A DNA stretch of 46,842 nt from Marinifilum sp. (lineage in GTDB: Bacteria; UBA9089; CG2-30-40-21), in assembly GCA_020717845.1 (NCBI GenBank), contig DYDG01000006.1:1-46842 (forward strand), written 5' to 3'. Below the pieces are notes generated by a model. That model saw only the letters and a list, made by a program, of their open reading frames with translations, did not search any database and was not told the origin of the DNA. Position numbers and translations under genes: made by a program. Of this stretch, positions 14,650-17,963 are shown one piece after another (the first letter of the stretch is position 1; the number at the start of each line of letters is the position of its first letter).

Positions 14650-14748
14650 TATGAAAGAAATTTGGGAAAAAGGTGACCTGTGAAATAGAGTGATTTACTG
14701 CAAGAATATAGAGGTTTTTTAACTAAATTCTGTGATATTATTAAAAAT

Positions 14749-14780
14749 CCCTCTTAAAAAAGGGGGTTCGTGGGTTGTTA
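14749..14780. repeat. dispersed repeat, second copy of the 6427 family
   Basis: CCCTCTTAAAAAAGGGGG then TTCGTGGGTTGTTA, closely matching 6427-6458. It occupies the gap between glyQ and the toxin-antitoxin pair and marks the left edge of the inserted segment. Confidence 0.7.
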
Positions 14781-14859
14781 TTCTCTTTTTCTTTAACTAT
14801 ACCTCTGTAGTCAAACAATCCTAATAACGCAAAAACCAAACTTAAAAGGAGGTCGAGAA

Positions 14860-15096
14860 ATGTCAGTTATGGAAAATGTAGCTTTTGAAAGCAACTTGTT
14901 GCCAGATGGACATCTGTATTGTCCTAAAGAGTTTGCATATAATCAAGATGTCCATTTTAAAGTAGTTGCAACTTTTAAGAAACCTGAACTTGAAGCATCT
15001 GAGCACGAAATTGAATTGTCAAATATTAAGGATATTTCTGAAGATTTCCTTTCTCCAGAAGAACTGAACTATTATCTTAATTTGGAGCCATTATGA
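14860..15096 (+). CDS. putative antitoxin of a PemK/MazF pair
   Basis: A 78-aa acidic protein just upstream of, and overlapping by 4 nt (ATGA), a PemK/MazF-like toxin. This is the standard antitoxin-first arrangement. An optimal AGGAGG (14847-14852) lies 7 nt before the ATG. The N-terminal half contains LLPDGHLYCPKEF, like the short strand pair of some antitoxins. The acidic C-terminus (EDFLSPEELNYYLNLEPL) could wrap the toxin. The antitoxin call rests on position more than on sequence; I do not recognise the family. Confidence 0.7.
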   Translation: MSVMENVAFESNLLPDGHLYCPKEFAYNQDVHFKVVATFKKPELEASEHEIELSNIKDISEDFLSPEELNYYLNLEPL

Positions 15097-15434
15097 GTAA
15101 ATTCCAACAAGGACAAATATGGCTGGTGAATTTTGACCCAAGCTTTGGACATGAATATAAAAAGGTTCGACCAGCCTTGATTGTTCAAAATGACAGGTAT
15201 ATAGAATTAAGCAATTTGTTGACTGTTATTCCAATTTCTTCACAAATAACTAAACAAACAGATCTTGATATTTTGCTGAAGAAAAATACTCAGAATAGGC
15301 TTATGACAGACTCTTTACTTAAAACGAAACAGATTAGTTCATTTGATAAACAAAGATTTATAAAGCTCATTGGCATTGCTGATAAAGAAACAATGATAAA
15401 GATTGGAGAGAATATTAGGCTTTTTTTAATTTGA
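15093..15434 (+). CDS. PemK/MazF-family mRNA interferase toxin
   Basis: A 113-aa toxin of the PemK/MazF family, ribosome-independent endoribonucleases that cut mRNA at short motifs. The first strands GQIWLVNFDP, the loop SFGHEYKKVRPALIVQND with the conserved Arg, and TVIPISSQ with the conserved Ser are present. The C-terminal IKLIGIADKETM helix fits. Length is normal. Translation is coupled to the upstream antitoxin by ATGA overlap. The recognition sequence cannot be read from the protein. Confidence 0.9.
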   Translation: MSKFQQGQIWLVNFDPSFGHEYKKVRPALIVQNDRYIELSNLLTVIPISSQITKQTDLDILLKKNTQNRLMTDSLLKTKQISSFDKQRFIKLIGIADKETMIKIGENIRLFLI

Positions 15435-15560
15435 GTAGGTATACTTATAACTTAATTTGTAGGGAAATACTCTAAAAAGTGTAAAAAAGTGACATGTTGT
15501 CTTTGGCGTTAGCCACGAGAAAATAGACCAAGGATGTGATTATTAATACCACAATTGACA

Positions 15561-16017
15561 ATGAAAGAGGTCTATCATAAGGGGATTGTCATTCCCCAAG
15601 AAAATGTATTGTGTCCCACTTGATACGTTCAATTCGTAATGTGGAGAGTAGAGACGCAAGATGTTGCGTCATTTCGACTTCGCTCAATAACCACTCTGCT
15701 GCGTGGACAATAGGACTGATGAAAAAGGCTGATACTTGTTGATTTCGAATTGATAGACAGGAGTGGCAGGAAGAAATTGTCGAGTGGGAGTTGATAAGGC
15801 GAGAGAAGAATGGTATCGACCGTTTCCTGCCTACATAACAAACATATGGTCTGCTCCGTTTGGACAATTCGATACCCTTGATTTCATCAAGAATAGTAGC
15901 CTGAACGGTTGCAAAATTCACAAGTTATGACGGCTTAAAGTATATATCAAACCCCAAAAAGCAACAATTACTGATGATGAAATTATGTGGATAGTGCAGA
16001 AAGAAGGGTTGGTATAG
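15561..16017 (+). pseudogene. interrupted DUF104/AF2212-like antitoxin gene
   Basis: ATG 15561 starts MKEVYHKGIVIPQENV, similar to the N-terminus of DUF104-type antitoxins (V-x-A-I-Y-x-x-G-V-x-x-P). At 15931-16017 a frame reads RLKVYIKPQKATITDD then EIMWIVQKEGLV and stop, resembling the matching second strand (E-G-T-x-V-x-V-x-I) and a C-terminal tail. About 320 bp of repeat-rich DNA (about 15606-15927) sits between. The match is by eye and the insertion ends are not defined. Confidence 0.4.
15646..15699. repeat. composite dispersed repeat (TAGAGACGC hairpin plus TTCGACTTCGCTCAAT box)
   Basis: An imperfect hairpin TAGAGACGCAAGATGTTGCGTC is followed by a box with core TTCGACTTCGCTCAAT. The 30 nt at 15670-15699 match the reverse complement of 46641-46670 at 28 positions, and a third diverged copy is at 37841-37866. 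The rest of the 15435-16050 gap holds only the pseudogene fragments. Confidence 0.75.
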
Positions 16018-16050
16018 AGAAAGAAAGGGGGCAGACTAAAAGATAAAACA

Positions 16051-16079
16051 TTGACAATACAATAATTTTGTGGTAAGAT
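16051..16079 (+). promoter_or_regulatory. promoter of the ATPase-PIN pair
   Basis: TTGACA (16051-16056), a 17 bp spacer and TAAGAT (16074-16079). The start would fall near 16086, about 39 nt upstream of the ATPase ATG. A dedicated promoter marks the two genes as a self-contained transcription unit. Confidence 0.65.
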
Positions 16080-16124
16080 TATTACGGTTTCAATACATAC
16101 CCTGAATTAAAAGGAGAAATGGGA

Positions 16125-17444
16125 ATGCAATTTATTTATATTGATAACTATCGCGGATTTAATGATTGCTATATACCAATACTTGATGTCAATTTTATGG
16201 TAGGCGAAAATTCTACTGGTAAGACATCTATCTTATCTTTGTTGAATATCTTTGCAACGACTAACTTCTGGTTTAATCCAGATTTTAATCAAAAAGACGT
16301 TCAACTTGGTTCTTTCAAAGATATTATTAGTGCTGACTCAACAAACCGAGACTATTTTCGAATTGGAATAGCAGAGTATAATAACAAGTGCAATAAATGC
16401 AATAGGAAAGATGCTGAAAATGATTTCATGTTCCTCTTAAAATTTGTTTCAAAGGAGGGGTTGCCTTCTATTTCACAATATTCGTTTCTTCAAGGAAATG
16501 TTGCGATAACTGCCCGCATTAGAGAAGATGATGAAATTGAGTTTATGCATGAAAGAGTCAATCTTGCTGAAAACACTGGAGACGAATTATTAACAGTATA
16601 TAAAAAATGGGTTAAAGAAAAATTTAAGCCAGAAGAATTTAAGCTATTAAAGTCTCCATTCAAAAGTCGTTCTTTGATACACTTGTCGTCGCTTATCCAG
16701 AATGAAATTATAGCCAAAGGAAATCGTTCTGAACATGATTTTGGAGTGAACATTCCTGCTTTTGTAGACAATACGGCCTGGATTGCACCTATTCGAACCA
16801 AGCCTAATCGCACATATGATCAATACTACAAAATTAATTTTTCGCCAGAGGGTGAACATGCACCATATCTTATAAAAAAATTACTTAACCAGAAAGATAC
16901 TGCAGAATCTTTTCAAGAATTCATCAAAGAGTTTGGTGATAATAGCGGGCTATTCCGCTCAATTGCTGTCTCAAACCTTGGCGAAAATCCAGAGAGTCCA
17001 TTCCAATTGGATGTAACACTTAACAAATCACCAATAAATGTTACATGTGTCGGGTATGGTGTTTCACAATCCTTGCCAATAATTGTTGAGTTATTTGCTC
17101 GTCGAAAATTGTCGTGGTATTTCATTCAACAACCTGAAGTTCATTTGCACCCAAGGGCACAAGCAGCTTTGGGAGATATTTTTTATCGTTTTGCAGCTAA
17201 AGAACGCAAAAGATTCTTTATTGAAACGCACAGCGATTTTGCTATTGATCGTTATAGGCTCAACATTAGAAAAAACCCTGAAACAAAGCATTCTTCACAG
17301 GTACTATTCTTTGAACGGAAAGAAAATGCAAACTGTGTTTCATCTCTAAGAATCGATTCAAAAGGAGCATATCCCGATGATCAACCAGATACTTTTCGGA
17401 GCTTCTTTATAAATGAAGAGATGAGCATTCTGGGATTGGAGTAA
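16125..17444 (+). CDS. OLD-like AAA/ABC-type ATPase, candidate defence protein
   Basis: A 439-aa ATPase of the AAA_15/AAA_21/DUF3696 type, related to the ATPase half of OLD and RecF-like proteins. Walker A GENSTGKTS lies at about residues 27-35. The ABC signature-like GYGVSQSLPII is near 307, the Walker B region QQPEVHLHP near 335 and the switch ETHSD near 367. In Walker B the usual hydrophobic-E/D-E-P-E is replaced by Q-Q-P-E. There is no C-terminal TOPRIM nuclease; the gene ends about 70 residues after the switch. Start 16125 is chosen because AGGAG lies 8 nt upstream, while the ATG at 16119 is only 2 nt from it. The PIN gene follows after 2 nt, so the pair probably acts as sensor ATPase plus nuclease. 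Confidence 0.85.
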   Translation: MQFIYIDNYRGFNDCYIPILDVNFMVGENSTGKTSILSLLNIFATTNFWFNPDFNQKDVQLGSFKDIISADSTNRDYFRIGIAEYNNKCNKCNRKDAENDFMFLLKFVSKEGLPSISQYSFLQGNVAITARIREDDEIEFMHERVNLAENTGDELLTVYKKWVKEKFKPEEFKLLKSPFKSRSLIHLSSLIQNEIIAKGNRSEHDFGVNIPAFVDNTAWIAPIRTKPNRTYDQYYKINFSPEGEHAPYLIKKLLNQKDTAESFQEFIKEFGDNSGLFRSIAVSNLGENPESPFQLDVTLNKSPINVTCVGYGVSQSLPIIVELFARRKLSWYFIQQPEVHLHPRAQAALGDIFYRFAAKERKRFFIETHSDFAIDRYRLNIRKNPETKHSSQVLFFERKENANCVSSLRIDSKGAYPDDQPDTFRSFFINEEMSILGLE

Positions 17445-17446
17445 TT

Positions 17447-17932
17447 ATGTGCTTAATACTTGATGCAAACTGTCTGGCTGCAACATTTAATCCAGAAGAT
17501 TCGCGGCATGCTGACTTTTTACCAGTTTGTAACTGGATTGTAAAAGGTAAAGGGAAGATTGTTTATGGCGGTTCACAAATCCAAAAGGAATATAAAGCCT
17601 GCCAGAAATATCTCCATATGCTTATGAATCTTGAGAAACGTAATAAAATTGTTCTCTTATGTGATGCAGCCGTTGACAGAGAGCAAAAGGTTCTTAAAGA
17701 TAAAAAGAGCCATCGTGATTTTGATGACAGTCATTTATTGGCGATGGTAATAGTTTCTGGCGTAAGAATTGTTTGTACTGCCGAATCAAGGGCAATACCA
17801 TTTCTAAAGGATCGCAATCTTTATCCTGCACATATCAAGAAGCCCAAGATTTATTCAAAAGCAAAGAACGTGACATTGCTTATAGATAGCAATATTGCAA
17901 AAATATGTAGGTCATGTGTAGAGAAAAAATAA
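17447..17932 (+). CDS. PIN-domain nuclease paired with the ATPase
   Basis: A 161-aa PIN-like protein, presumably a metal-dependent RNase. It begins LILDANC with acidic Asp6. A conserved-looking Glu48 (QIQKEYK) follows, then the Asp91/Asp93/Asp94 cluster in HRDFDDSHLLAMVI and the VRIVCTAESRAI strand. This is the usual acidic quartet arrangement of PIN domains. It starts 2 nt after the ATPase stop, with GGAG inside the ATPase 3' end, so expression is coupled. It is longer than a VapC toxin (about 130 aa) and no VapB-like antitoxin adjoins. The upstream ATPase is therefore the likely controller. Confidence 0.75.
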   Translation: MCLILDANCLAATFNPEDSRHADFLPVCNWIVKGKGKIVYGGSQIQKEYKACQKYLHMLMNLEKRNKIVLLCDAAVDREQKVLKDKKSHRDFDDSHLLAMVIVSGVRIVCTAESRAIPFLKDRNLYPAHIKKPKIYSKAKNVTLLIDSNIAKICRSCVEKK

Positions 17933-17963
17933 ATCTTAATATTCCACAAAGGAGATACAAAAT

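Follow-up and report, generated by a model that had tools for sequence, protein, structure and literature searches.

An insertion with a GC content of 34.9%, compared with 43.9 and 44.6% in its flanks, lies between glyQ and glyS (positions 14650–17963) in the window, by which we mean the whole 46,842-nucleotide stretch of DNA analysed. Flanked by glyQ and glyS, it comprises a small ORF, a MazF-type gene, a gene for an OLD/AAA_15-type ABC ATPase (16119–17444, forward strand; 441 aa, without a nuclease domain) and a gene for a PIN-fold nuclease (17447–17932, forward strand; 161 aa), the latter assigned by PIN profile and AlphaFold2 model. In three congeners, glyQ and glyS are close together with neither the ATPase nor the PIN gene between them, and the window copy looks like a foreign insertion. 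The MazF/PemK-type toxin gene (15093–15434; PF02452, E 6.8e-27) overlaps a 78-aa ORF (14860–15096) that has no Pfam or PADLOC match, and the two likely form a separate toxin–antitoxin pair.

The ATPase and PIN ORFs are on the same strand, 2 nt apart. Upstream of them is a sigma-70-like sequence, TTGACA-17-TAAGAT (16051–16079, forward strand), matching at 10 of 12 positions and with TG ahead of the −10 element. The sequence that the earlier note had read as the promoter of the pair is present and is the top-scoring of 7 such sites, but because shuffled sequence averages 9.5 sites, its role as a promoter is only plausible. A predicted ribosome-binding site, AAGGAG (16111–16116, forward strand), is spaced 2 nt from the ATG at 16119 and 8 nt from a second ATG at 16125. 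This latter spacing, together with the starts of ATPase homologues at the matching position, makes 16125 the more likely true start, which would give a protein of 439 aa. The putative ribosome-binding site of the PIN gene, GGAG (17438–17441, forward strand), falls within the end of the ATPase gene.

Pfam places the ATPase in AAA_15 (E 3.2e-28) and AAA_21, and its best PADLOC families are NsnB (E 1.6e-39) followed by AriA (E 8.4e-30), with HEC-03B also recovered; these are defence ATPases, and PADLOC recognises the protein as no more than their relative. Pfam and NCBIfam profile scans gave no TOPRIM match, in agreement with its earlier description as an ATPase lacking that domain; of the label "DUF3696/AAA_15-type" given to it, the AAA_15 half holds, whereas DUF3696 has no Pfam match at E ≤ 1. 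The AlphaFold2 model (pLDDT 92.7), in which the ATPase fold reaches the end of the protein, aligns to the heads of SMC/Rad50, retron and Septu PtuA, and GajA with Z scores of 17–19. Judged by profile and predicted fold, the protein belongs among the OLD/PARIS/Septu-like ABC ATPases, the kinship first proposed for it. Assignment to the OLD family nucleases (classes 1–3), in which the ATPase protein itself ends in a TOPRIM domain, was rejected: the 441 aa have the ATPase fold throughout.

The motifs of an OLD/AAA_15-type ABC ATPase are all present: Walker A, an ABC-signature-like motif, a Walker B region and the histidine of a THS motif. Their conservation was counted in an alignment of 81 of 86 rows, with L025, L028, L031, L078 and L088 left out (odd starts, truncation, copies) and some starts shifted to match start. 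Walker A (GENSTGKT, residues 29–36; 16203–16226, forward strand) has G29, N31, S32, G34 and K35 in 81/81 rows, and the ABC-signature-like GYGVSQ (residues 312–317; 17052–17069, forward strand) likewise has G312, G314 and Q317 in 81/81. Little or no variation is seen in these rows at E340, at H344, in the ETHSD motif or in a C-terminal FF..E. The Walker B motif, remarked on as unusual at the outset, reads QQPE (residues 337–340; 17127–17138, forward strand) and is a family trait, occurring in 79/81 rows; this count is partly circular, as one of the scan patterns contains QQPE. Of 48 sequences recognised by the other pattern, which is free of it, 46 also have the motif, as do all 30 loci retrieved PIN-first from the phylum of genome G348. 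Five related ATPases with other partners (L107–L111) have EQPE; the OLD chain 6p74, which we take to be a Thermus-type OLD protein, has EEPE, and PtuA has DQIE. By these alignments, QQPE is a signature of the PIN-paired ATPase family, and together with a downstream PIN gene it offers a ready diagnostic.

In QQPE, both places usually held by Walker B acids are glutamine, with E340 retained, and this replacement may slow ATP hydrolysis. Related cases are described in PMC12796447: GajA has kept ATP binding and lost hydrolysis, and replacing both Walker B acids in Cran1 left its activity intact. The fixed QQPE provides a natural test of whether such ATPases need hydrolysis or binding only.

Turning to the downstream gene, its product matches no PADLOC family, no NCBIfam model and no Pfam family above the cut-off, with PIN_3 falling below it at E 0.12; PADLOC matches of its relatives are few and weak (E 0.01 or more). 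The AlphaFold2 model (pLDDT 93.6) places it in the PIN fold, with Z ≥ 8 to 46 of 994 chains and the best alignment to VapC toxins (5x3t_B; Z 11.7, with 127 residues aligned at rmsd 2.6). With Foldseek on its own, no match to a PIN protein reached an E below 0.001. The acidic quartet of the PIN nuclease superfamily active site is kept: Asp6 (17462–17464) is Asp in 83/83 sequences, Glu48 (17588–17590) is Glu in 80/83, Asp94 (17726–17728) is Asp in 83/83, and the fourth acidic residue, Glu113 (17783–17785; all forward strand), is Asp or Glu in 82/83, with Asp in most relatives. These counts include L088, L028 and L077, which were dropped from the PIN alignment itself (80 of the 83 rows) as from the same contig as L011, a near-copy and truncated, respectively; the relatives' PIN gene starts were set by a scripted motif. 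Since the quartet is kept, the PIN protein should be an active nuclease.

The pair was first met in three genomes of one genus and on two IMG/VR contigs. The ATPase alignment was then run against named genomes, which gave 285 pattern matches and 200 relatives; the best 80 of the relatives were kept. Among these best 80 of 200, 77 have an open PIN ORF directly downstream, and all 77 ORFs are recognised at E ≤ 1e-3 by a PIN profile whose six seed pairs were taken from outside the 80, one of them (L011) lying on the contig that also appears as L088. Pairing at this rate is far above what chance would give. L091 has a PIN gene with one internal stop, and L040 and L068 retain PIN remnants only (tblastn E 2.7e-5 and 1.8e-4, against a 960-base target). 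The ATPase is open in all three of these loci, which suggests that PIN is lost before the ATPase when the pair decays; PIN is also broken or partial in G432, G453 and G479. The gap between the two genes is −4 to +18 nt in 82/82 pairs, 21 of which overlap. Pairwise distances of the two proteins are correlated (Mantel r 0.78 over 77 pairs; maximum of 2000 permutations, 0.22), and by this measure ATPase and PIN evolve as a unit. In a quick tree, the ATPase rows fall in 19 named groups, two of them archaeal, and 10 rows are left unassigned. A Fibrobacterota MAG holds the closest relative of the window's copy, at 68% identity.

Searching from the PIN side gave the same association. PIN matches at E ≤ 1e-3 were found in 10 of 386 genomes, at 11 places, 8 of which are strong, including that of the window. 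The ATPase is directly upstream at 7/7 of the strong places outside the window; the 3 weak places have no ATPase and are probably ordinary PIN proteins. One genome, G266, has the pair twice, at separate loci (L160 and L161). The ATPase and PIN genes are an obligate two-gene module that is widely conserved, well beyond the source genome, and the arrangement first described, an ATPase gene followed closely by a PIN gene, is one that its relatives share.

A VapB-like antitoxin is not part of the module, because, among ORFs of at least 35 aa lying up to 1.5 kb from the pair, none is common to more than 3 of 81 loci. Such a gene had been named at the start as an observation that would tell against the module, and none is conserved near it. 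VapBC was also considered as the class of the system: the PIN fold and the acidic quartet are shared with it, but the place upstream of PIN is held by a 441-aa ATPase, with no small VapB-type antitoxin gene next to it.

OLD-type ABC ATPases are known with TOPRIM, HNH, HEPN or PD-(D/E)xK effectors, and several such systems invite comparison with the pair. PARIS likewise consists of two genes, for an OLD-type ABC ATPase and a separate nuclease, and AriA ranks second among PADLOC families for our ATPase; its effector AriB, which cuts tRNA (PMC12409363), is a TOPRIM/DUF4435 protein, whereas the partner in the window has a PIN fold with no PADLOC match, and the window ATPase has QQPE as its Walker B. 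WonAB, PD-T4-4 and the pairing of an OLD-ABC ATPase with a novel REase are also two-gene systems of ATPase and nuclease, and WonAB is described as aborting infection by stopping translation (PMC12137116); WonB has a PD-(D/E)xK fold in place of PIN, so that the pair was not assigned to WonAB/PD-T4-4. Septu and retron PtuA–PtuB share the ATPase fold (Z about 18) and the separate nuclease gene, but PtuB is an HNH protein (PMC10440598), and the PIN-fold partner here has no HNH match. Menshen (NsnA–NsnB–NsnC) provides the best PADLOC family for the ATPase, NsnB, and ptuXYZ joins a PtuA-like ATPase to a PIN-like domain (PMC11980606). Both differ in having three genes, including a DUF262 gene, according to PMC10952713 and PMC11980606, compared with two here. 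The PIN-like domain of ptuXYZ is described as lacking catalytic residues (PMC11980606), whereas the window's quartet is intact; for Menshen, neither a DUF262 NsnA nor a TOPRIM-like NsnC lies beside the pair, and PIN has no NsnC match. Finally, the PIN nucleases of DS-3 and DS-5 are reported as needed for phage defence (PMC13092281); DS-3 is a single protein with a split PIN and DS-5 a PIN protein with a DUF5830 protein, and the available part of that source mentions no OLD ATPase with either. A published pair of OLD/AAA_15 ATPase and PIN was not found in open-licence PMC, although surveys of ABC ATPases and PIN proteins (Krishnan 2020, Matelska 2017) could mention one in silico. The pair looks to be a so far undescribed two-gene anti-virus system of the type that shuts down translation in infected cells.

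We consider it probable, by analogy, that the pair works in abortive infection as a two-gene module akin to PARIS, Septu and WonAB, with a PIN RNase as its effector. PARIS, WonAB and the RNase toxins neutralised by AAA ATPases are the analogues on which we propose that the ATPase most likely controls PIN, which when activated would cut tRNA or rRNA. In such a co-translated immune module, the OLD/PARIS/Septu-like ABC ATPase would be the sensor and regulator and the PIN ribonuclease the effector. The ATPase may bind ATP and build head-to-head dimers or larger assemblies, and in a complex with PIN could hold it inactive or position it. A phage-caused trigger, possibly an anti-restriction protein or altered nucleotides or DNA ends, would change the assembly, after which PIN would cut tRNA or rRNA, so that translation stops and the infection is aborted. 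This reading draws on a pairing that is observed to be conserved, on the co-evolution of the two proteins, their folds, the catalytic residues, carriage on prophages and the lack of a third gene; the PADLOC matches to defence ATPases and the foreign look of the insertion also speak for it. Ordinary genes as nearest neighbours, near-core status in one phylum and the lack of a match to the window's PIN in complete phage or plasmid records weigh against it. The earlier note had suggested an RNA-cutting variant of the OLD/PARIS/Septu logic; the module and the PIN catalytic residues bear this out in part, and RNA as target and defence as role would follow by analogy. A more specific and tentative version is that the pair represents an unnamed OLD-like immune class, with archaea among its 19 or more named groups and near-core in one phylum. 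In it, a hydrolysis-poor QQPE ATPase would lock a PIN tRNase or rRNase by binding nucleotide, and would release it in response to a phage that binds the ATPase or shifts nucleotide pools.

Possibly, the pair is instead a plain toxin–antitoxin system, in which the ATPase would bind and neutralise a PIN toxin, addiction would keep the pair together, and defence would be secondary or absent. The antitoxin-first gene order with coupled starts, the VapC-like fold of PIN and the open ATPase in the three loci with decayed PIN are consistent with this, the last in a main scan that began from the ATPase and would miss loci that had kept PIN and lost the ATPase. AAA ATPases have also been shown experimentally to be antitoxins of RNase-like and TOPRIM toxins, as in the NetFlax pairs AarT:AAA, in which the ATPase neutralises the RNase-like toxin AarT, and AbiL-like (PMC10440598); the partners of the NetFlax AAA hub given in the available part of that source are TOPRIM, RloB, HNH, HEPN and an mRNase-like fold, not PIN. 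Against neutralisation alone, a 441-aa ATPase with all nucleotide-site motifs strictly kept is more than binding needs, and in WonAB the toxicity of the nuclease is described as requiring the ATPase, which rules out simple sequestration there (PMC12137116). We regard a plain toxin–antitoxin role as rather unlikely.

A housekeeping or stress function in RNA processing, such as tRNA or rRNA quality control, fixed in some lineages, is less probable still. Its main support comes from the phylum of genome G348, perhaps Poribacteria by likeness to L091, where the PIN of the pair occurs in 49 of 84 genomes. There are 50 PIN places in that phylum, and all 30 that were made into loci have the ATPase; 11 of 18 places have a downstream run of gene families in common, with ATPase identities of 62–85% among them. 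The 49/84 genomes and the common downstream context suggest long vertical upkeep of the pair there, not a mobile defence gene. Near-core status was seen in genera g50 and g348 of this phylum, and raises the question of whether an immune module could have acquired a permanent function there. A related OLD-family ATPase, Cran1, is described as acting in the cell cycle and not in defence (PMC12796447), which also speaks for a housekeeping function. Elsewhere, in contrast, the pair is patchy: strong PIN matches occur in 7 of 386 genomes of the broad sample, the source genome included, and in 1 of 19 genomes of the window's phylum. Carriage on prophages and the foreign-looking insertion that holds the window copy also argue against a housekeeping role.

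Prophage carriage was seen with the ATPase alignment, which found the pair on two prophage-type IMG/VR contigs. In L011 portal and terminase genes flank the pair, which is encoded on the other strand, and in L010 it is downstream of an endolysin gene and a Rha-like regulator. The window's PIN alone had no match in complete phage records, plasmids or IMG/VR, nor did a four-row PIN alignment against IMG/VR, probably owing to fast PIN evolution. The nearest gene on each side of the pair (up to 800 aa) was scanned, giving 146 genes, from which two of L028 were dropped as near-copies of those of L027. The remaining 144 are mostly ordinary genes with few defence matches, the commonest PADLOC family and the commonest Pfam family, among the 25 most frequent listed, each accounting for 3/144; no enrichment in defence islands is clear in this uncontrolled count of 144 neighbours. 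The argument for defence drawn earlier from the toxin–antitoxin neighbour is not upheld, no neighbour being conserved.

That the PIN effector cuts DNA and not RNA, the pair acting like Septu or Gabija, appears doubtful. PIN-like folds include flap DNA nucleases, and the closest folds to the ATPase include PtuA and GajA, from DNA-cutting systems. The PIN model, in contrast, finds its best solved matches chiefly among VapC-type toxins, followed at lower rank by SMG6, Nob1 and RNA-free RNase P; these proteins are RNases. Chance neighbourhood of a VapC, with its own antitoxin elsewhere, and an unrelated ATPase might be imagined at a place that collects toxin genes, given the MazF-type toxin and small ORF just upstream, but is refuted by the conservation of the pair in 77 of the best 80 of 200 relatives, by co-evolution and by the lack of a third gene in more than 3/81 loci.

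If the proposed abortive-infection module is confirmed, a strictly paired PIN version found over many phyla and in archaea would add an RNase arm to the OLD-type ATPase systems, and with the pair the idea that effectors are swapped on one ATPase chassis can be tested. Other partners were seen beside related ATPases. In L109 (243–2913; phage P2-EC5) and L110 (3020–5642), the gene after that of an EQPE ATPase encodes a protein containing a PD-(D/E)xK-like stretch; both look WonAB/PD-T4-4-like, with Pfam PDDEXK_4 at only E 0.08 for L109. On plasmids of Aeromonas, Azotobacter and Acinetobacter, a DUF3696 ATPase gene overlaps a hypothetical gene for a 177-aa protein starting VIDTN (L108, 3401–6029; L162, 2114–4732). 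The L108 ATPase has EQPE, and its 177-aa partner is PIN-like to the eye; profile comparison was weak (probability 5%), and we do not claim it as a PIN relative. The small VIDTN gene is present in 12 plasmid records, and in L108 and L162 it is followed by an RNA ligase family gene; a cassette of RNase and RNA ligase, if real, would be of interest.
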